A stretch of 64,000 nucleotides of DNA from Pseudomonadota bacterium (lineage in GTDB: Bacteria; Bdellovibrionota_B; Oligoflexia; Oligoflexales; CAIYRB01), in assembly GCA_026390445.1 (NCBI GenBank), contig JAPLFX010000049.1, positions 18,886 to 82,885 of the forward strand, written 5' to 3'. This document shows, one piece after another, positions 43,780 through 64,000 of the stretch. The position numbers and the translations under genes were made by a program. Position 1 is the stretch's first letter; the number at the start of each line of letters is the position of its first letter. The notes beneath the pieces were generated by a model. It did no database searches, had not been told where the DNA came from, and saw only the letters and a program-made list of their open reading frames with translations.

Positions 43780-44301
43780 CTAAGCCGTGATGACATAGGC
43801 CAGGAGCACCAGTCCTACAAGCAGGAAAACCAGGGTGATCCTGGTCACCCAGTCTGGCGATCTGCTTTTGTGGTCGCGTGGGATGGCTCCTGCTTGGAGC
43901 GTTGCAAACCCCGTAGATTTCGGTTCGCCTGCCGGCTTCTTCGTCGCGACTGGAGTTGGCTTAGCAGCATCCGCTAAAGGCGATGCAGTTGGTTGAGGCT
44001 TGGTCGGCTGGTCGGCGATGCCGTCTGCAGTCTCATCGGTCGGCGTCACTCGGCCGTCTGGTGAGGTTTCTTCGTAGCTACCAAAGGCCCCCGCCTGGGG
44101 CCTACCCGCCGTATCTTCATCGGGCGCCGCCAAAAGAGCCGCGGTTCTTTCGCCGTCATCGCTCAAAATAGTCTTGGTAAATTGGCGATTGGCTTTACTC
44201 GCCGACGGCAAATGCTGGTCCATTGCTTGGTGAACCAGCATGAGAGTCCGAGAGACGACCGCCTCTTCCGGCGAAGGTATAAACTCAAAGATACGATTCA
44301 T
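43780..44301 (-). CDS. Hypothetical tail-anchored protein with Pro/Thr/Ala-rich disordered linker
   Basis: No signal peptide; low-complexity centre; C-terminal TM WVTRITLVFLLVGLVLLAYVITA. Confidence 0.65.
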   Translation of the reverse strand: MNRIFEFIPSPEEAVVSRTLMLVHQAMDQHLPSASKANRQFTKTILSDDGERTAALLAAPDEDTAGRPQAGAFGSYEETSPDGRVTPTDETADGIADQPTKPQPTASPLADAAKPTPVATKKPAGEPKSTGFATLQAGAIPRDHKSRSPDWVTRITLVFLLVGLVLLAYVITA

Positions 44302-44334
44302 CGAGATATCGTATCACAGGTCGTGGCGCTTGCT

Positions 44335-47007
44335 CTAGGCACGGCCTAGCTCTTCCCCCGTAGGTAGACCATGACATTTTTTGAACTTTTTACCCGATCC
44401 GCAGGGGCAGACATCATTGCGGCCGACTTTGTCCATATCACGCTTAAACGTCTGAGCCGTTAGGGGCTTTGTGGGCTCAGAGGTCGGCACCCTCGTGCCA
44501 TGGTAGATGAGACCAGCGCCGTTCGCCGTGTCGCCACCCGACTCTGCTTCAGCCGATGTAGGTGACAGCGACGAAGCCGGATCAGGGTGACGCAGCTGCA
44601 GCAACTCTTCATCTAGCTCTGGCTCTGGCTCTAAATCTCGGGCTGTCTGCTCGGGGGACTGGTCAGGAATTTCAATGGAGGCCAGAGCTGAGGCTGTCTC
44701 CTCTTGAATCCGCACCATCATTTCGGAGAAGAGCCGGAAGCCCTCTTTTTTATATTCTTGAAGAGGGTCGCGTTGGCCGTAGCCTCTAAGGCTGACGCTG
44801 TCTTTTAGCGCATCCATGCCCATCAGGTGGTTCTTCCATGCCTTGTCAATGACTTGGAGGAAGACCCAGCTTTCGAGACGGCGAGCATTTTCTTCGCCAA
44901 TCCGGTCGGTCTTTGCCTTGTAACCCGCCATCACTTGAGCGGTGATGCTGTCGGCGATGGAGTCGACGGACGCATCGCCAGCCGTAAGTTGGCTTAGGTC
45001 AATCGGAAGATGCAGAGCGGCTTTAGCCAATGTCTCGACGTGGGGCAAGTCCCAAGATCCAGCCCCGGTCAGATCTGGAGCCTGGTCGGCCACGGTGGCA
45101 TGCGCAATACTGTGGATAGCTTCTTCGGTGAAATCAATGCGGGTCTCTGCTTCCAGCGCTTGCCGACGCAGGCCGTAGATGACTTGCCGCTGTTGGCTCA
45201 TGACATCGTCGTACTCGAGCAAATGCTTACGGCTGGAGAAGTTTTGCTCTTCAACCCGACGCTGGGCACGAGCAATGGCCCGGGTCACCATCGGCGAAAT
45301 AATCGCCTCCCCCTCCTGCATTCCTAGACGGCCCATAATGGATGACAGCCGGTCCGAAGCAAAGATGCGCATCAAGTCGTCCTCTAAAGAGAGGAAGAAC
45401 TTAGATTGCCCAGGATCGCCCTGCCGCCCTGAACGACCGCGCAGCTGGTTGTCGATCCGACGCGATTCATGGCGCTCGGTACCAACCACGTAGAGGCCAC
45501 CAAGATCCTTGACACCCTCACCTAAGACGATGTCCGTCCCCCTGCCGGCCATGTTGGTGGAAATGGTCACCTGGCCCTTTTGTCCTGCGGCTGCGACAAT
45601 ATCCGCCTCTCGAGCGTGGTTCTTGGCGTTGAGGATTTCATGCGGAATCTTTCGCTGCACCAGCAGACTCGCCAACAACTCCGATTTCTCGACGGAGACC
45701 GTACCAACCAGTACTGGCTGGCCGCGCTTTTGTGCTTCGGCGATTTCGTCTGCGATGACGTTGAACTTCTCTCTAGCGGTGCGGAAGACGACGTCCTCAT
45801 GGTCCTGACGGATCAAGTTCCGGTTGGTTGGGATGACTGCGACGTCGAGGTTGTAGATCTTCTTAAACTCGACCGCCTCGGTGTCAGCCGTTCCCGTCAT
45901 CCCACCAAGCTTACTGTACAAGCGGAAAAAGTTTTGAAAGGTGATGGTTGCCATCGTCTGGGTTTCATTTTGAACCTCGACGTGCTCTTTTGCCTCCAAC
46001 GCCCCGTGTAACCCGTCGCTGTAACGACGGCCAGGCATCAGACGCCCCGTGTGCTCATCAACGATCAGGACCTTGCCCTCGCGGACGACATAGTCCACGT
46101 CCTTTTTGAAGACGATATGCGCTTTAAGAGCCTGCTGAATATGGTGCAGGTATTCGATATGGGTCGGGTCGTAGAGGTTCTCAATGCGGAGGCGCTTCTC
46201 TAGCTTACTGATGCCGTCTTCAGTTAAAGCCACCGTCCGTGACTTCTCGTCGAAGATATAATCGCTATCCTTTTGCAAACCAGGGATCGCCGAGTTGACC
46301 GTTGCGTACAGTCCAATATTGGTTTCGGATGGCCCCGAAATGATGAGGGGCGTTCTGGCTTCATCAATGAGAATCGAGTCAACCTCATCGACGATTGCGA
46401 AAAAATGCCCGCGCTGGACCATGCGGCTTGCTTCGGTCTTCATATTGTCGCGCAGGTAATCGAAGCCGAATTCGTTATTGGTACCGTAGGTGACATCGCA
46501 GGCATAGGAGTCGCGACGCTGGCTGTCGCTTAGTCCGTGCACGATGGTTCCGGTGGTGAGGCCAAGAAATCCGTAGATTCGTCCCATCCACTCAGCATCA
46601 CGTTTGGCTAGATAGTCGTTGACGGTGACCAGGTGGGCACCCTTGCCAGCCAAGGCATTTAGGTAGATAGGCAGGGTCGCAGTCAGGGTCTTTCCCTCAC
46701 CGGTTCGCATCTCGGCAATCTTCCCCTCGTGCAGGAAAATCCCGCCGACCAGCTGGACGTCAAAGTGCCGCTTTTTATCGACCCTCCATCCGGCCTCTCG
46801 GACTACGGCGAAGGCCTCTGGTAGCAAGGCGTCTAGCGTTTCACCCTGGCTGAAGCGAGCCTTGAACTCCGCGGTTTTTTGTCGGAGCGCGTCGTCGCTT
46901 AACGCCTTGGTTTGCGGCTCGAGCGCATTGATTTTGTCGACCAGCGGCTTGATTCGTTTAAGTTCGCGGTCGTTCTTACTGCCAAATATTTTTTGAAGAA
47001 ATTGCAT
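44335..47007 (-). CDS. secA: Preprotein translocase ATPase SecA
   Basis: MRTGEGKTLTATLPIYLNAL, GRGTDIVLG, C-terminal VGRNDVCPCGSGKKFKKCHG; ATG at 47007 preferred over 47070. Confidence 0.98.
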   Translation of the reverse strand: MQFLQKIFGSKNDRELKRIKPLVDKINALEPQTKALSDDALRQKTAEFKARFSQGETLDALLPEAFAVVREAGWRVDKKRHFDVQLVGGIFLHEGKIAEMRTGEGKTLTATLPIYLNALAGKGAHLVTVNDYLAKRDAEWMGRIYGFLGLTTGTIVHGLSDSQRRDSYACDVTYGTNNEFGFDYLRDNMKTEASRMVQRGHFFAIVDEVDSILIDEARTPLIISGPSETNIGLYATVNSAIPGLQKDSDYIFDEKSRTVALTEDGISKLEKRLRIENLYDPTHIEYLHHIQQALKAHIVFKKDVDYVVREGKVLIVDEHTGRLMPGRRYSDGLHGALEAKEHVEVQNETQTMATITFQNFFRLYSKLGGMTGTADTEAVEFKKIYNLDVAVIPTNRNLIRQDHEDVVFRTAREKFNVIADEIAEAQKRGQPVLVGTVSVEKSELLASLLVQRKIPHEILNAKNHAREADIVAAAGQKGQVTISTNMAGRGTDIVLGEGVKDLGGLYVVGTERHESRRIDNQLRGRSGRQGDPGQSKFFLSLEDDLMRIFASDRLSSIMGRLGMQEGEAIISPMVTRAIARAQRRVEEQNFSSRKHLLEYDDVMSQQRQVIYGLRRQALEAETRIDFTEEAIHSIAHATVADQAPDLTGAGSWDLPHVETLAKAALHLPIDLSQLTAGDASVDSIADSITAQVMAGYKAKTDRIGEENARRLESWVFLQVIDKAWKNHLMGMDALKDSVSLRGYGQRDPLQEYKKEGFRLFSEMMVRIQEETASALASIEIPDQSPEQTARDLEPEPELDEELLQLRHPDPASSLSPTSAEAESGGDTANGAGLIYHGTRVPTSEPTKPLTAQTFKRDMDKVGRNDVCPCGSGKKFKKCHGLPTGEELGRA

Positions 47008-47097
47008 CCGAAAGCCCAGATCTTTCACAAGCGGTTGGGTAACCCGGGCAATATACCTGCCACAGGCCACAGGCGAAACAGCTAGTCTTCATTCGAC

Positions 47098-48060
47098 TCA
47101 ATACACATGGCTGATGTCGGCCAGATCGAGGATGAATTTTTGTGGATTTTCGAGTTTGCCATTGATCAACACTTCATAATGCACATGTGGCCCTGTGGTC
47201 CGGCCGGAGTCGCCGACGGTGGCGATTTGTTCGCCACGAGCGACCTTCTGGCCGGGCTGGACCATGTTCTGATGATTGTGGCCATACCGCGTCACCACGC
47301 CATAACCATGTGCAACCATTATGAAATTTCCGAACCCGGCCTTGGCGCCAGAGAAGATGACGACGCCGTCGGCTGGAGCCAGAATGGCGGTACCCACCGG
47401 CGCTGCAATATCAATTCCGGCGTGATCGGTGCGCTCTCCAGTGAACGGTGAGACTCGGACACCAAAGCCGCTAGTGATCCACCCATCGACTGGAGCTAGA
47501 GAAGGGATTGAAGACAGGAGATTTTTTTGTTTGCTGAGGGTCGACAGCAGGTGCTGTAGCTCCAGAGCGTGGTTGTTCGCCTCCTGGCCGATCCCCGACA
47601 AGCGGTCGAAAACCTGTCTAAACACCAGCTTATCCAGATTTAGACCGATTGGAACATAGCCTTCTGGCTGGAGCGCCTCGCCGTCGCGTTTGGCGACGCC
47701 AAACTCCTCCGGCGAAAGGGGGCCGATTCCCGTCTTTTTGCTAAACTTTTGCACCTTGATAGCCGTCAGCTCGCCGAGCTTGGACGTGTAATCTTGCACC
47801 CGGCGCAGCGATACTTTGACCTCCTCAAGATTCTGCATCAAGACCCGTGCTTCGCCTTTCAGACCCTCATTCTCGGCGGAGATGACTTGGTAGTGATGGC
47901 GAAAGGAGCGCAGTTGGAGGTAGTCGAGGAGCACAAACCCGCTGCTGCCAAATGCCAAAAAGCTGGAGAAAAATAGGCCCTTAATTAAGGCCTGAGGCAA
48001 GCGCACCTGGCGTGTGGCCCGGTGCCCATCGGGAATGATCATGATGGTCAATCGTTTCAC
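47098..48060 (-). CDS. M23-family peptidase with N-terminal TM and coiled coil
   Basis: GFGVRVSPFTGERTDHAGIDIAAPVGTAILAPADGVV ... GPHVHYEVLINGK. Confidence 0.93.
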   Translation of the reverse strand: MKRLTIMIIPDGHRATRQVRLPQALIKGLFFSSFLAFGSSGFVLLDYLQLRSFRHHYQVISAENEGLKGEARVLMQNLEEVKVSLRRVQDYTSKLGELTAIKVQKFSKKTGIGPLSPEEFGVAKRDGEALQPEGYVPIGLNLDKLVFRQVFDRLSGIGQEANNHALELQHLLSTLSKQKNLLSSIPSLAPVDGWITSGFGVRVSPFTGERTDHAGIDIAAPVGTAILAPADGVVIFSGAKAGFGNFIMVAHGYGVVTRYGHNHQNMVQPGQKVARGEQIATVGDSGRTTGPHVHYEVLINGKLENPQKFILDLADISHVY

Positions 48061-48842
48061 TCACCGCCTCGCGGTCCCACGCTGACGGCGATGATGACGA
48101 CTGAAATATTGTCGTCGCCGCCGTGGGCATTGGCCAAATCGATCAGCGACTGGACCGCTGCCGTGGCATGGGTTTTTAAGTGAAAGGAGATATCTTTGTC
48201 GGTGACCTTGCCGTGGAGTCCATCGCTGCAGAGGAGCAGCTTGTCGCCATCTTCCAGTGCCAAGCTGGTGGTGTCCACGTCTTCTTCTTCCTGGTAGCCG
48301 ACGCTGCGCGTGATGACGTTGCGCAGATGGTGAAGGTCGGCCTCCTCTTTGGTCAGAATCCCCGCGCGGACCTGTTCGCTGACGAGGGAGTGGTCATTGG
48401 TCACTTGATAGATAAATTCTCGTCTGAGCAGGTAGCAGCGGCTATCCCCGACATGCGCGATATAGGCATAATCATCGATTATTTTAACCACCGTTGCGGT
48501 TGTTCCCATGCCGCGCAGAGATGGCTCTTCAAGTGCTCTTTCATAAATCTTGGTCGAGGCGTAATTGATGGCATTGCCGAGCATATTTGAAACGCGGGCA
48601 TCTGGATGCGTTCGCTGAGGCGACGGGGCGAAGAGTTCCTTCTGTTCCTGGACGTGCTGGTCGATCGCTTGGACGCAGAGGCTGCTGGCTATTTCGCCCC
48701 CGGCATGGCCACCCATACCGTCGGCAACTATGAATAATTGCTGCACGGGGTCACTCAGGATCGAGTCCTGATTGGCTGAGCGTACCTGCCCAACATGGGT
48801 GGCGCCGGCCGCGGTGATCCTGATTTCAGGGGCGGTGGACAA
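48057..48842 (-). CDS. PP2C-type serine/threonine phosphatase
   Basis: DSILSDPVQQLFIVADGMGGHAGGE, LLLCSDGLHGKVTD, GGDDNISVVII. Confidence 0.93.
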   Translation of the reverse strand: MSTAPEIRITAAGATHVGQVRSANQDSILSDPVQQLFIVADGMGGHAGGEIASSLCVQAIDQHVQEQKELFAPSPQRTHPDARVSNMLGNAINYASTKIYERALEEPSLRGMGTTATVVKIIDDYAYIAHVGDSRCYLLRREFIYQVTNDHSLVSEQVRAGILTKEEADLHHLRNVITRSVGYQEEEDVDTTSLALEDGDKLLLCSDGLHGKVTDKDISFHLKTHATAAVQSLIDLANAHGGDDNISVVIIAVSVGPRGGE

Positions 48843-58137: not shown

Positions 58138-58707
58138 TTACTCCTGGGAGCATCTCGTGCCAGGACTAGGATGTTTTAGGTACTTACTTGCCAGCAGGAT
58201 GCACAGTGCGCTGAGACTGTGATCTATCTGCGCCGTTCGGACCATGGAGTCCAAGGTCGAAGCGTCGATTAGTTCAACTTCGATCTGCTCATCGGGGTCG
58301 GGGAAGTGGCGCCTCTCGGTGGCCGGACGGCAGCCTAGGGCGAGGAAAAAATGGCAACGATTCGTTAGGATCGCCGGGTTCGTGTAGATAGAGCCAAGGG
58401 AAAGGATGCGTTGGCTGGTAAATCCCGTTTCCTCTTCTAGTTCGCGAGCGGCCGTGATGGTCGGATCGCTTTCGCTGCTTTCAATCACACCGCCCGGAGT
58501 CTCCAGGATCGATTTCAAAACACCTGCGCGGGGTTGGCGAACTAAGATCGCTCGACCATCGTCGGTGATCGGTAGCACGTTGACCCAATCCTTACTGATC
58601 AGGCGGTAAAATGGTTGCGAAAAAGGCGTGCCGTTTTTTTCAAGGTCGAGCTGTTCGACGCTAAAGGGAATGGTCTCGAGCACGATGCGGCGCTTGATTG
58701 GATTCAT
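58138..58707 (-). CDS. NUDIX hydrolase (ADP-ribose pyrophosphatase-like)
   Basis: GGVIESSESDPTITAARELEEETGF NUDIX box; ATG at 58707 gives ATGA overlap with upstream gene. Confidence 0.9.
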   Translation of the reverse strand: MNPIKRRIVLETIPFSVEQLDLEKNGTPFSQPFYRLISKDWVNVLPITDDGRAILVRQPRAGVLKSILETPGGVIESSESDPTITAARELEEETGFTSQRILSLGSIYTNPAILTNRCHFFLALGCRPATERRHFPDPDEQIEVELIDASTLDSMVRTAQIDHSLSALCILLASKYLKHPSPGTRCSQE

Positions 58708-59327
58708 TTTTCCCAGTCTTGTTCGCGATTTATGCGTGGAGCGATAAACTCTGCGGTAGCTCCCGCGGCGGCGGTAAAGTGGTGGCGCCACTGGCTATGG
58801 GCGTCGGGTCCGATACTATTGGTTACGGCTAAGATAACGGCAAGGCTTGATGCCTGTGCTGCAATTTCGCCAATGATGGAATAAAGCTCTAGGTTTTCAA
58901 CGTGATGCTCAGCGACCCATGATTCTGGCAGTTTGCCAATGAGGCTGACGCCTGGCGAGCCAATGACGCGGCGCTCCGGCAGGGAGCGACAAAATAGCGG
59001 CGGTGGCGGCAGCGTGATGGGCGGAGCGGTGTCCTTGACGGTATATGAAAAGCCCATCCGCTCGCAGGTAGGCATCCAGATGACTTCTTGGGCGCGCACC
59101 AAATGAACTTTGGTAAAGGTGCCGAAGGTGCCGCAGGTCCCAACAAACACCACCGGGCGTCCGCGGCAAAAGTCGGCCACCTGGCGGGCCCTTTTTGCGG
59201 CGTTGAGCGCCCCGATGCCGGCTAATTTCGTCAAAGGCGTGTACCCACGCTGTTGCAAGGCATTCTCGAGTGGCTCGAGTTCGAATTTAGCGGCGGCGAC
59301 AAGGACCGGATCCACGACATCTCGCAC
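58704..59327 (-). CDS. Nucleoside phosphorylase-superfamily protein (futalosine hydrolase-like)
   Basis: VFVGTCGTFG, ENLELYSIIGEIA, AVTNSIGPDAHSQWR. Confidence 0.65.
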   Translation of the reverse strand: MRDVVDPVLVAAAKFELEPLENALQQRGYTPLTKLAGIGALNAAKRARQVADFCRGRPVVFVGTCGTFGTFTKVHLVRAQEVIWMPTCERMGFSYTVKDTAPPITLPPPPLFCRSLPERRVIGSPGVSLIGKLPESWVAEHHVENLELYSIIGEIAAQASSLAVILAVTNSIGPDAHSQWRHHFTAAAGATAEFIAPRINREQDWEK

Positions 59328-59385: not shown

Positions 59386-61092
59386 CTAAAGAATATGCAG
59401 CTTGACGAGTACGACCGGCTTCTTGCGCAAAAGTCTAGTCAACTGGCGCCTAACAAAAAGTCTAGCCTCCTCGGTAACGCCGTCTGGAGTGCTCTGAGCT
59501 TGACTTAGCAGCGGGCGAAGGTGGTGGGCCAACTGACGTCCCATTTTTTCCAGCCAGTCGTTCGTGTTGACCATCAAGGGTAAGCACAGTCCGTTAAGTG
59601 AGATGTTGGGTCCGGCCCGCCACTCTTTGGCAGACTGATCAAACACTCCGTCGACTAAAGCCATGCCCAGCTCTCCGACGCGCAACCGTTCGCGAAGGGT
59701 TCCCTGGCTGATCAGCACTCCTGCCTCTGCATCGACGAACTCTAATTCGATATCAATCTTGCCGGCCTTAACGACACCGTCTCTACTGACATCAAGGACA
59801 TCCCCGTTTTCGATCAGCGTGCTGCTTGCGGTCATTCCAGCGCTCAGCGGCCTACCGAGATTAGCCTGCATGTGGGTAAATGAACCATGGACTGGAAGAA
59901 AGTGACGCGGGCGCAGGGTTTGCACCAATCGCTCCACGTCGCCGCCATAGGCGTGACCACTGACGTGAATGTCAGGGGCATCGCGACCTGAAACAATTTT
60001 TGCCCCGGCGCGAAGGAAAGAGTTGGTCATGGCGAAGACGGCTTTTTCGTTACCAGGGATCATCCTGGACGACCAGATGACGGTGTCTCCGGGGCCGACG
60101 GTGATGCTGCGATGGCGTCCCGCAGCCATGCGCGCCAATGCTGAGCGCCACTCACCCTGGCAGCCAGTAGCCAAGACGACCAGCCTGTTGCGAGGGAACG
60201 TGGCCACCTGGTCCTCGGTCAGGCGAAGGCTCTCTGGCAGGTGGTAAAGATTGAGCTTTTTAGCGATCATCAGGGTGGTCTCAATACCATTGCCGCAAAT
60301 GCATAATCTGCGGCCTGTGGCAATACAGACGTCGGCGATCGTTTTAAGGCGCCACAGGTTGCTGGCAAAGGTGGTGATGATTGCCGCTCCAGAGCAATGC
60401 TCAACAACTCGCTTCAGCGGTTCAAAGACCGTTTCCTCGCCAGGGCAGTGCCCATCCTTGTCGGCGTTTGTACTATCAGTCAGCAGCAGATCTACGCCTT
60501 CGTCACCAATGCGCTTAAGCAGAGCGAAATCCGTTGCTGGCTCCAGCATCGGATGCTCCTCGAACTTGAAATCCCCAGTATGAAAAACATTTAGATCAGG
60601 GGTCCGGATGAATAAACAGCAGGTCATCGGAATCGAGTGATTGACGTGAATGTACTCGGCGTCAAAGCCTGTCGTCGTGACGTGATCGCCTGGCTCCACG
60701 GTTACTAAGGTATATGCATTTGGATCGTGGCCTAGCTTGGTTAGTTTGAGCCGCAACAGCTCGATGGTCCACGCGGTGCCGTAGACCGGCGCAGGCCATT
60801 TAGGCAGAAGGTGGGGAACAGCTCCAAGGTGGTCTTCATGAGCATGTGTGATGATATATGCGTGGACGCCGCCGATTGCTTGAAACCAAGTGTCGACGGC
60901 AGGCACGATGGCATCGACACCTAGCCGCTCCGGTTCAGGAAAGCGCACTCCAGCGTCGACGACGAAGAGCTTCCCGCTGGCAATATAGGCGGTTAGGTTC
61001 ATGCCAAATTCCCCGCATCCTCCCATCGGAATGATACGAAGGGCGCCGGGGACTGAGGCAGGATTGAACGGGTGTGTGTCTAGGTTATGCAA
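59386..61092 (-). CDS. Ribonuclease J-family metallo-beta-lactamase/beta-CASP nuclease
   Basis: THAHEDHLGAVPHLL, HTGDFKFEE, SGHAYGGDVERLVQTLRPRHFLPVHGSFTHMQANL. Confidence 0.95.
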   Translation of the reverse strand: MHNLDTHPFNPASVPGALRIIPMGGCGEFGMNLTAYIASGKLFVVDAGVRFPEPERLGVDAIVPAVDTWFQAIGGVHAYIITHAHEDHLGAVPHLLPKWPAPVYGTAWTIELLRLKLTKLGHDPNAYTLVTVEPGDHVTTTGFDAEYIHVNHSIPMTCCLFIRTPDLNVFHTGDFKFEEHPMLEPATDFALLKRIGDEGVDLLLTDSTNADKDGHCPGEETVFEPLKRVVEHCSGAAIITTFASNLWRLKTIADVCIATGRRLCICGNGIETTLMIAKKLNLYHLPESLRLTEDQVATFPRNRLVVLATGCQGEWRSALARMAAGRHRSITVGPGDTVIWSSRMIPGNEKAVFAMTNSFLRAGAKIVSGRDAPDIHVSGHAYGGDVERLVQTLRPRHFLPVHGSFTHMQANLGRPLSAGMTASSTLIENGDVLDVSRDGVVKAGKIDIELEFVDAEAGVLISQGTLRERLRVGELGMALVDGVFDQSAKEWRAGPNISLNGLCLPLMVNTNDWLEKMGRQLAHHLRPLLSQAQSTPDGVTEEARLFVRRQLTRLLRKKPVVLVKLHIL

Positions 61093-61098
61093 TGATGG

Positions 61099-62811
61099 TT
61101 ATCCTTTGGTCGGAGCAAACTCGAAGGGGTAGCTAACTTCAACACTGCCGTGTCTTGGCCGGGGAAATCGCCAGGTCAATATTTTTTGCCGAATGCACTC
61201 TGTCATACGCGGGTCTTGGATACTAGTGGTGATCAATGCCACGTCCGCTATGGCCCCTCGTGAGTCTATGCGCCACTTCCATTCCATCATACCGGCGGCT
61301 TGGTCATTGCGGCGCAGGGCTAGTTCATAGCACAGTTGCAACTGGTACCGATTCTCTTTGATATAGCGTTCGATCAACGGTGGCTCAAGGTCGCCGATCA
61401 ACGGCTCGCGTGCCGTCGGTGCGCCCTGCGCGGGTACGCCGTATTCCGAAGCCTGAATTTGGTAAAGCTTTTCGTCGGCCAGTCGAAGATCTGAGCCTAT
61501 GTTGAAGGATGCGTAGCGTACACCCTCGGGTATGGCGATCGGACCTTGGACATCGTGCGGTCTGTCTAGTTTCAAGCGGTCTTGACGCCGTGTACCGCGC
61601 TGTTTGGCCTTTGCCTCGCGACCAAGTGCATCAGCCTCGGCGTACATCATTTCTTCGTCGCTTAGATTGTGAAAGACGTGAATTTTCCCAATGGAGTCTG
61701 CAAGGGCCGGGTCCTGGTGCCTGATATTGCGGTATTCCTGCCAAGCATAGTCCTGGTCTGCAGGAAATTTCTCCTGGATCTCACGTCTGGCGACCAAACT
61801 CATGTCGAAGCCGCGCTGCAAAATGTCGATTTTATCGATGATGCGTCGCATGCTGCCGCTGCTGCTCTCACCTAGGACGCTAGGGATCGACAAAATTGCG
61901 ACACCGTCTTTCATCGTTTGCAGGTGATCGATCTCTTGCTGCCGGTCGATTTTTGCCGCCAGGCTTTTACGGGCGTCACCAAACATTGCCTGATATAAAT
62001 TCGTCGTCGAACTATCGACCCATTTCGGCTGATCTTCATGCCATCCCATGAGCGCGGCGGTAAGTGCCTCGTAGTAGCTCATGACCGAGGCAACTAGGCG
62101 CTTACGGTCGAGGTTTTCCTGCAAGGCTTCCGGTGCAGTGCGCAGGTGGTCTGGGGCGATGAAGGGCAAGGCATACTCAGCGGCGACGTCTGAAAGCTTG
62201 GTGGCCCTGTGGTACGGTCGATTTAGGAGCCCTATCAAGGCGCCTCCGATGAGAATCGACGTCATCAAAAGTCCCAAAAGGCCCATATGCAGTTCGAGTC
62301 TTGAAGCAAAAAGCAGACTGAGCAAAGGCTTTCGATAGGCCGGACTAGTGCCGCTCATGGCAGTCTTGGTGGAGGGCTCAAGCGGAGCTAGTTTGATCAT
62401 GATCCGCAGGTCACTTTCGGTGACGCTGGCGTAGTCTCCAAGTTGCATCAGAACCTGATGTCGGCCGCGCGATTGGCGTTTCAGCGTAATCAGGTCGCCT
62501 TTGCTGGTGCAAAACCCCTCCCACCGGTGATCGACATCGAGCTCGACCCCGCCAGGTACGAAACGCAGGAATTCTAGTCGACCATCGCTGAGAGGATAGT
62601 GCGGCACCACAAAGGGTCCTCGACCCTGGCTGGTTAGAGCTAAGTGCCCCCTTCGCCTAATCGGCAAGTGGACGGCGAGTAGCGACGAGCCATTTTGCAG
62701 GACTTCGACGTAAAGACGATGTCTTATCCGCTGGCTGAACTTAGCCTTTGCGGGGGTCCTGCTACTGTTGGTGCCATTGACTGCGGATCGATCGTCCTTT
62801 TTTGCCTTCAT
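61099..62811 (-). CDS. AgmX/PglI C-terminal domain protein, TonB-like topology
   Basis: Cytoplasmic N-domain, central TM LGLLGLLMTSILIGGALIGLL, C-terminal IERYIKENRYQLQLCYELALRRN...VALITTSIQDPRMTECIRQKILTWRFPRP...VSYPFEF. Confidence 0.82.
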   Translation of the reverse strand: MKAKKDDRSAVNGTNSSRTPAKAKFSQRIRHRLYVEVLQNGSSLLAVHLPIRRRGHLALTSQGRGPFVVPHYPLSDGRLEFLRFVPGGVELDVDHRWEGFCTSKGDLITLKRQSRGRHQVLMQLGDYASVTESDLRIMIKLAPLEPSTKTAMSGTSPAYRKPLLSLLFASRLELHMGLLGLLMTSILIGGALIGLLNRPYHRATKLSDVAAEYALPFIAPDHLRTAPEALQENLDRKRLVASVMSYYEALTAALMGWHEDQPKWVDSSTTNLYQAMFGDARKSLAAKIDRQQEIDHLQTMKDGVAILSIPSVLGESSSGSMRRIIDKIDILQRGFDMSLVARREIQEKFPADQDYAWQEYRNIRHQDPALADSIGKIHVFHNLSDEEMMYAEADALGREAKAKQRGTRRQDRLKLDRPHDVQGPIAIPEGVRYASFNIGSDLRLADEKLYQIQASEYGVPAQGAPTAREPLIGDLEPPLIERYIKENRYQLQLCYELALRRNDQAAGMMEWKWRIDSRGAIADVALITTSIQDPRMTECIRQKILTWRFPRPRHGSVEVSYPFEFAPTKG

Positions 62812-63386
62812 TCGGTGGTGTGACCTCCTGAAGGGGAGTCGTGATTTGATCCGTGCAGCGAACTAGCAATGACTAGGGTCTCAAGCGCATAGCTGGTTAT
62901 ACCGACCTCGGCAAGTGCAGCGATGACCGGTCGCAAGTGCAAGTATCTTAGGCGTTGATCAGCGGCGATGACCGTCGTGGTCTGCGAGCCCTGCACTCGC
63001 TTGAGCAGGGCCGCGGACGCAATCTCACCCTCTACCCGACGGCGGAGGTATTCAACAAAAGGCCGCATCTCGTCCGTCGATGCAGAGTCCTGGCGCCAGC
63101 GAAAAACTCTCCGATCGTTGGTGGTGATGACGATGTCCGGGCCGATCGGAGACATGCTGAACCATACCGCGCTGTCTGGTCGCACCTGCGAGGGAAAGTT
63201 AATCAGGCTAGCAGGGTGTCCCATGCGTGGATTGGTCGCGAGCACCAGGTGGGCGGTAAGGAGTAATACGAGCGCAACGGTCAGAAGAAATGGATAGGGA
63301 TACCACCATAGCGGCTCGCTGAGGCGCTGCTGCTTTGCAACGTATGCCTCGCTCCAGTTGACGGCGCGTGAAGATTCCATGGCCAT
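62808..63386 (-). CDS. ExbD/TolR-like biopolymer transport protein
   Basis: Single N-terminal TM; periplasmic region with TTTVIAADQRLRYLHLRPVIAALAEVGI (ExbD-like tail). Confidence 0.65.
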   Translation of the reverse strand: MAMESSRAVNWSEAYVAKQQRLSEPLWWYPYPFLLTVALVLLLTAHLVLATNPRMGHPASLINFPSQVRPDSAVWFSMSPIGPDIVITTNDRRVFRWRQDSASTDEMRPFVEYLRRRVEGEIASAALLKRVQGSQTTTVIAADQRLRYLHLRPVIAALAEVGITSYALETLVIASSLHGSNHDSPSGGHTTE

Positions 63387-63880
63387 TACATAAGTCCGTT
63401 GCTTAGAATGATGCGTTCGAAGTGTGGTGATGTGCGAAGTCCGGCCACAACCTGAGTGACGATAGGTACCGGGACATCTCCGGACGGAATGAGGACTAAT
63501 ACCTTACTAAGTGGAATATTCTGGTGAGCCGCCCGTTCTCGTACCCATGACGTCAGTTGTTCTAGGAGTTTCTGTAATTGCGGCGCCCCATCTATATGGC
63601 GAATGATGTATTTGTCCCGGACGTTTGAAAAATTTACTGAAAATGCCGTCAGATCTCCGAAGTAAAAGGCGTCTGCTGTGAGCACCACGGCTGGAGAGTT
63701 CTGTGTCAGGCTCGCTTGCGGATCCTCGCGATACTCATGCAAACCTGGGTCGTCAACCGAGGCTTGAACCAACGGAATTTCCAGTGGCACCACACCGTAA
63801 ACCGACGCAAGAGTTACGGCTCTCAGGCCAAAGCTCAGGATGGTTAAGAGGCCGAACAGGCCAAATAACACAGCAGGCAT
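63386..63880 (-). CDS. ExbD/TolR-like protein (second copy)
   Basis: Single N-terminal TM; KVLVLIPSGDVPVPIVTQVVAGL. Start placed at ATG 63880 because a separate reading frame ends at 63894. Confidence 0.6.
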   Translation of the reverse strand: MPAVLFGLFGLLTILSFGLRAVTLASVYGVVPLEIPLVQASVDDPGLHEYREDPQASLTQNSPAVVLTADAFYFGDLTAFSVNFSNVRDKYIIRHIDGAPQLQKLLEQLTSWVRERAAHQNIPLSKVLVLIPSGDVPVPIVTQVVAGLRTSPHFERIILSNGLM

Positions 63881-63893
63881 CGACCAATGATCA

Positions 63894-64000
63894 TCAGATA
63901 ATCTCTTCTTCGTCCTTGATATCCTCGACTGATACATCATCAAAACTCTCATCTGCATGAACTTCGGACGCTTCTTTGGCGCCGGCATTATAGTCAACTT
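63894..64000 (-). CDS. C-terminal tail of an upstream gene running off the window (ExbB/TolQ/MotA-type proposed)
   Basis: Minus strand frame reads VDYNAGAKEASEVHADESFDDVSVEDIKDEEEII*, an open acidic tail just before the ExbD-like gene. Confidence 0.5.
   Translation of the reverse strand, partial: VDYNAGAKEASEVHADESFDDVSVEDIKDEEEII

Follow-up and report, generated by a model that had tools for sequence, protein, structure and literature searches.

A cluster of four genes of freshwater Oligoflexia, conserved across the Oligoflexales and Silvanigrellales, encodes an ExbB-type protein, two ExbD-type proteins (ExbD-A and ExbD-B), and a GltG-like transducer (AgmX), and is best read as a vertically inherited paralog of AglRQS-GltG. 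Current understanding of the MotAB, ExbBD, TolQR, and AglRQS motors centers on a single plug-helix aspartate. An earlier note on the window (the 64,000-nucleotide stretch of DNA analyzed here, G000:C162:18886-82885) had pointed to a conserved aspartate in the ExbD transmembrane segments as a feature to look for, and the residue was absent from both ExbD-like helices of the window. We give about an even chance to the reading that canonical proton coupling has been lost and that the paralog now acts as a trans-envelope scaffold or signaling complex. A conserved and evidently functional complex with motor architecture and no aspartate implies either a nonmotor use or protons harvested another way, and natural variants with and without the aspartate, the pore threonines, and the TonB domain make both ideas directly testable.

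A gene cluster that spans a contig join

On its right side the window runs up to the end of its contig, and the final 141 bp are the reverse complement of the end of contig C217, as expected for a shared assembly k-mer. Gene order was identical on one uninterrupted contig (L035) of a close relative (G002), and thus the join between contigs C162 and C217 is sound. A contig-end artifact was ruled out, as gene order was uninterrupted in relatives. Contig C217 supplies the remainder of the truncated ExbB gene and a 548-amino-acid FHA/HD-GYP protein, such that the minus-strand order reads [FHA-HD-GYP]-ExbB-ExbD-A-ExbD-B-AgmX-RNase J. The ExbB/ExbD-A, ExbD-A/ExbD-B, and ExbD-B/AgmX overlaps are 47, 1, and 4 nt, respectively, and a gap of 6 nt separates AgmX from RNase J (Table 1). 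The composition proposed in the earlier note, an AgmX/PglI protein and two distinct ExbD-like proteins encoded by overlapping genes, was confirmed. The note had also predicted that the gene ending at 63894 would encode the ExbB-like partner, and extension past 64000 through C217 indeed revealed an ExbB/MotA-type gene with its stop at that position (Pfam MotA_ExbB, E 5e-16), contrary to the note's refuting condition of a missing ExbB-like gene. The gene reaches window-equivalent position 64694 and encodes a protein of 266 amino acids that starts with MWGEL and ends in DIKDEEEII; its best PDB profile matches were TolQ and ExbB.

Table 1. Features of the cluster in the window and of putative reduced clusters in f3 genomes
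Feature	Position	Strand	Remark
Identical 141-bp terminal sequence of contigs C162 and C217	63860..64000	.	Assembly overlap, not genomic repeat
ExbB/TolQ-like gene, 3′ end	63894..64000	-	Whole gene L003:14978-15778 on C217
Dual-coding overlap, acidic ExbB tail/basic ExbD-A N-terminal segment	63894..63940	-	ATG 10-23 codons before ExbB stop
ExbD-like A, 184 aa	63386..63940	-	Single TM helix lacking acidic residues; short basic N-terminus; periplasmic beta-alpha domain
ExbD-like B, 192 aa	62808..63386	-	Single TM helix lacking acidic residues; periplasmic C-terminus of ExbD type
AgmX/GltG-like transducer, 570 aa	61099..62811	-	NCBIfam NF033768, E 8e-25 at residues 477-565
AgmX cytoplasmic N-domain, residues 31-143	62383..62721	-	Predicted all-beta, FHA/SMAD-like fold
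AgmX transmembrane helix, residues 171-196	62224..62301	-	From model
AgmX C-terminal TonB-fold domain, residues 477-565	61117..61383	-	Invariant cysteines C494 and C539
RNase J, last gene of conserved block	59386..61092	-	Pfam RNase_J_b_CASP, 3e-34
f3 remnants, possible minimal cluster	L226:1810-2873; L228:8782-9685		3-TM ORF and small ORF before RNase J

The ExbD-like proteins and the missing aspartate

The assignment of both small proteins to the ExbD type in the earlier note held for ExbD-B, which gave a weak Pfam ExbD match (E 0.015) and aligned through its periplasmic C-terminus with a canonical ExbD/TolR profile (E 1.1e-5; this and the other pairwise profile E-values are from single comparisons). 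It was less firm for ExbD-A, which had no family hit and aligned weakly with the canonical profile (E 0.048), such that the note's second refuting condition, ExbD-like proteins failing profile matches, is half true for this protein. The model of ExbD-A has a beta-alpha domain besides a single long N-terminal helix, and Foldseek ranked the TolR structure 5by4 fourth (probability 0.99; E 8.5e-3, nonsignificant). PDB sequence profiles gave no match for ExbD-A or ExbD-B, and Foldseek gave no fold match at E<0.001 for ExbD-A or AgmX. We conclude that ExbD-A is a probable member of the ExbD family by its topology, gene order, weak profile alignment, and nonsignificant TolR match; that the assignment comes mainly from context counts against the proton-uncoupled scaffold.

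The ExbD-B helix was without an acidic residue in 24/24 aligned members (the alignments comprised 24 to 27 sequences from one GTDB phylum), and a wider survey found no genuine acidic residue in it, the few flagged cases being due to helix windows set in the wrong place or to an ORF assigned in error. For ExbD-A, the helix was without an acidic residue in 21/24 aligned members and in 33 of the 46 sequences of a wider set. The exceptions among the 46 were five f8 genomes with Asp or Glu at helix residue 4, near the classical place, seven Silvanigrellales with Glu at the periplasmic end of the helix, and one truncated sequence. As controls, the transmembrane aspartate was present in 32/32 canonical ExbD/TolR proteins from the same genomes and in both AglQ/AglS-type proteins of the host genome. 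The machine had been described in the earlier note as putatively energized, which is unsupported, as its ExbD-like helices lack the motor aspartate. Unlike ion-driven 5:2 motors (ExbBD, TolQR, and MotAB), the window cluster has plug helices devoid of an ion-binding carboxylate, and thus the complex is most likely a tether or sensor rather than a classical proton motor. We infer an assembly in which an ExbB-type ring, each subunit of which has three transmembrane helices, would hold ExbD-A and ExbD-B by their single helices and contact the helix of AgmX, presumably with no proton flow. AgmX would present its FHA-fold domain to the cytoplasm and extend through a helical periplasmic stretch to a TonB-fold tip reaching the cell wall or outer membrane. 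The complex could then be either a passive trans-envelope tether or a sensor in which signaling would run inward, relaying the state of the envelope to the FHA-fold domain and the ExbB tails.

The pore residues of ExbB bear on the main rival explanation, in which ions would still drive the complex, as in motors of the 5:2 type, and the essential carboxylate would have shifted out of the ExbD helix into ExbB TM2 (GT-I-D motif). In 32/33 Oligoflexales, an Asp or Glu occupies the second position past the TM2 threonine, a position taken by Phe in AglR and by Trp in TolQ. Moreover, the two pore threonines are kept in most Oligoflexales (26/33 and 23/33), including both, in TM2 and TM3, in the ExbB of the window. 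Disappearance of the pore threonines from several lineages and loss of the TM3 glutamate speak instead for the uncoupled scaffold. There is also a precedent in GldLM of the Bacteroidota, as E49 in TMH2 of the ring protein GldL is both essential and titratable (PMC8986121). The likeness to GldLM would lie in a possible key carboxylate in the ring protein instead of the central helix; the transducer is different, and a gliding role is not indicated for the window cluster. The retained threonines and the new TM2 residue, which could carry protons, both count against the uncoupled scaffold, as do the five f8 genomes with an acidic residue near the classical ExbD-A place; in the aligned f8 members with such a residue in ExbD-A, ExbB has Ala at both pore-threonine positions. 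Against relocation, the Silvanigrellales have Gln, His, or Asn at the Thr+2 position and mostly lack the pore threonines, a residue two positions along the helix would not be expected to point into the pore, and the TonB domain is dispensable in some genomes. We consider a relocated carboxylate unlikely, albeit the first alternative to weigh against the uncoupled scaffold.

AgmX is related to GltG and ExbB to AglR

AgmX matched the GltG C-terminus family (E 1e-17) and scored 64 bits against a GltG equivalog cutoff of 650 bits. An AlphaFold model predicted an all-beta cytoplasmic domain, a transmembrane helix, a helical periplasmic region, and an alpha/beta C-domain, an architecture of the TonB/TolA type (N-in single transmembrane helix, periplasmic linker, and TonB-fold C-terminus). 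Foldseek matched the C-domain to TonB C-terminal domains, with TM-scores of 0.5 to 0.7 by target; for the N-domain region, the matches were FHA and IRF-type folds. E was above 0.001 in both cases, and the C-domain gave a TonB profile match at 0.0047. In profile alignments, the N-domain matched the second beta-domain of the phylum's GltG, which lies just before the GltG transmembrane helix (E 1.9e-4), and the C-domain matched that of GltG (E 5e-23). We conclude that, as judged from both alignments, AgmX is a GltG paralog that differs from GltG in having neither the FHA domain nor the Pro/Gly-rich linker. The adjoining HD-GYP gene carries an FHA domain, and thus the domain missing from AgmX occurs in a neighbor. 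That gene (L003:13234-14880 on C217) encodes FHA fused to an HD-GYP domain of the c-di-GMP phosphodiesterase type and is found directly before ExbB in most Oligoflexales; it was not found in Silvanigrellales.

A quick ExbB tree, in which branches were long, placed the window family in one clade (support of 100) that was sister to AglR (SH-aLRT of 86) and apart from TolQ-like proteins. The cluster is like AglRQS-GltG of Myxococcus xanthus (PMC3169522), and like a relative encoded on contigs C87 and C229 of the host genome, in having one ExbB-type protein, two ExbD-type proteins, and a GltG-type transducer, and the homology extends to both AgmX domains. It differs from AglRQS-GltG in lacking the transmembrane aspartate in ExbD-B and in the window's ExbD-A, in having RNase J instead of linked GltC, GltD, GltE, or outer membrane protein genes, and in the conserved DEEEII tail of its ExbB. 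With TolQR-TolA and ExbBD-TonB it shares the ExbB fold family and a TonB-like C-terminal domain, but it has two aspartate-less ExbD paralogs and a transducer with a large cytoplasmic domain of predicted FHA fold.

That ExbB is homologous to AglR and AgmX to GltG is what one would expect if the window cluster were the organism's AglRQS-Glt gliding or sporulation motor, the system to which the earlier note had likened it. The kinship stood and the motor assignment did not. The host genome encodes a separate set with transmembrane aspartates, AglR-AglQ-AglS-OMP-GltC-TPR on C87 (L155; AglR, AglQ, and AglS labeled by context and homology), together with GltE-GltG on C229 (L055), and the window cluster is without GltC/D/E and without the aspartate. 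In G002, a single contig carries both AglR and GltG, separated by about 10 kb. We conclude that the window cluster is very unlikely to be the gliding or sporulation motor of this organism.

The ExbB tail is constrained as protein

The DEEEII motif forms the C-terminus of ExbB in 44/45 loci and is encoded within the overlap with ExbD-A. An in-frame ExbD-A ATG lies upstream of the ExbB stop, mostly by 14 to 19 codons, in 44/45 loci, and the remaining locus has only a TTG or a downstream ATG. Across the 45 loci, the DEEEII codons varied only at third positions, except for one G-to-A change. The same stretch read in the +1 frame, as the ExbD-A N-terminus, gave 17 different peptides, while the ExbB frame differed in 1/45. 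The pattern indicates constraint on the ExbB protein, and substitutions at third positions of the ExbB frame rule out that DEEEII is a by-product of dual coding. A programmed frameshift fusing ExbB to ExbD-A was ruled out by the ExbD-A ATG and by the occurrence of all three stop codons. One guess from the charges of the two segments is that the acidic ExbB tail contacts the basic ExbD-A N-terminus. Two f3 genomes that have no ExbD proteins also lack the DEEEII tail.

Linkage to RNase J and loss of the cluster

Among the 47 loci surveyed, RNase J directly followed AgmX in all 45 that were uncut by a contig end, a class-wide linkage that was undocumented in the open-access literature searched. 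A scan of genome contigs returned 36 loci, of which those informatively named were Oligoflexia, the exceptions being MAGs with generic or wrong titles. Named relatives are MAGs and strains of the Oligoflexales and Silvanigrellales, including Fluviispira and Spirobacillus, and the host is accordingly placed in the Oligoflexales. No recurrence outside the Oligoflexia was evident in the scan, which depended on DEEEII and one other peptide pattern. The cluster genes are intact and constrained across about 45 species, which argues that they are not decaying.

Departures from the full cluster were of several kinds. AgmX lacks the TonB domain in four genomes from three f11 genera (G019, G028, G031, and G040; L071, L073, L074, and L233), in which the neighboring genes are kept in the available sequence and RNase J is next. 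In the two f3 genomes, both of close relatives, the place of the cluster just before RNase J is taken by a 3-TM ORF and an ORF of 123 to 146 amino acids. Only the 3-TM protein of G008 matched the ExbB profile, at its N-terminus (E 8e-7 over 48 residues), which limits the f3 remnants as support for the uncoupled scaffold, and the small ORFs showed no significant sequence link to the AgmX N-domain. Judged from the four f11 genomes and the f3 remnants, reach to the outer membrane looks dispensable. RNase J was kept in 7/9 searched genomes without an intact cluster; for example, it adjoins EF-G in G009, and in G018, where the cluster is absent, the HD-GYP gene abuts it. We conclude from losses in which RNase J persists that the four genes are mostly gained and lost together and that RNase J is independent of them.

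The linkage could alternatively mean that the complex serves RNase J as a membrane platform and anchors a degradosome, in which case the ring and the AgmX FHA-fold domain would hold or regulate the nuclease. Consistent with a platform, RNase J is directly downstream in every uncut locus of two orders, an ExbB-like ORF and a small ORF are retained just before it in the reduced f3 clusters, and a compartmentalized RNase J degradosome is reported in Helicobacter pylori (PMC7492731). Gene order by itself says little about contact, however, and persistence of RNase J in genomes without the cluster argues against a platform, as do the RNase E/G and RNase Y also encoded by the host genome and the absence of DEEEII from f3 remnants that still adjoin RNase J. 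The presence of RNase E/G and RNase Y also rules out that RNase J is anchored as the only RNase of the cell. We regard the platform as improbable. Quite improbable too, and broader in scope, is a phylum-wide, rotor-type complex derived from a gliding motor that would use no protons and would serve at the inner membrane as a hub that couples the state of the envelope to RNA decay by way of the co-encoded RNase J.

Other genes were noted near the block. Downstream of RNase J lies a conserved gene (window 58704-59327) for a 207-amino-acid product that gave no Pfam match at E 0.01 and that, by eye, looks like a phosphorylase or nucleosidase. In most Oligoflexales, genes for a PP2C phosphatase, an M23 peptidase, and SecA keep a constant order on the downstream side of the RNase J block; here they occupy window 43780-48842. 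Between those genes and the RNase J block, at about 48.8 to 58 kb of the window, is a cluster of O-antigen-type export and sugar genes.
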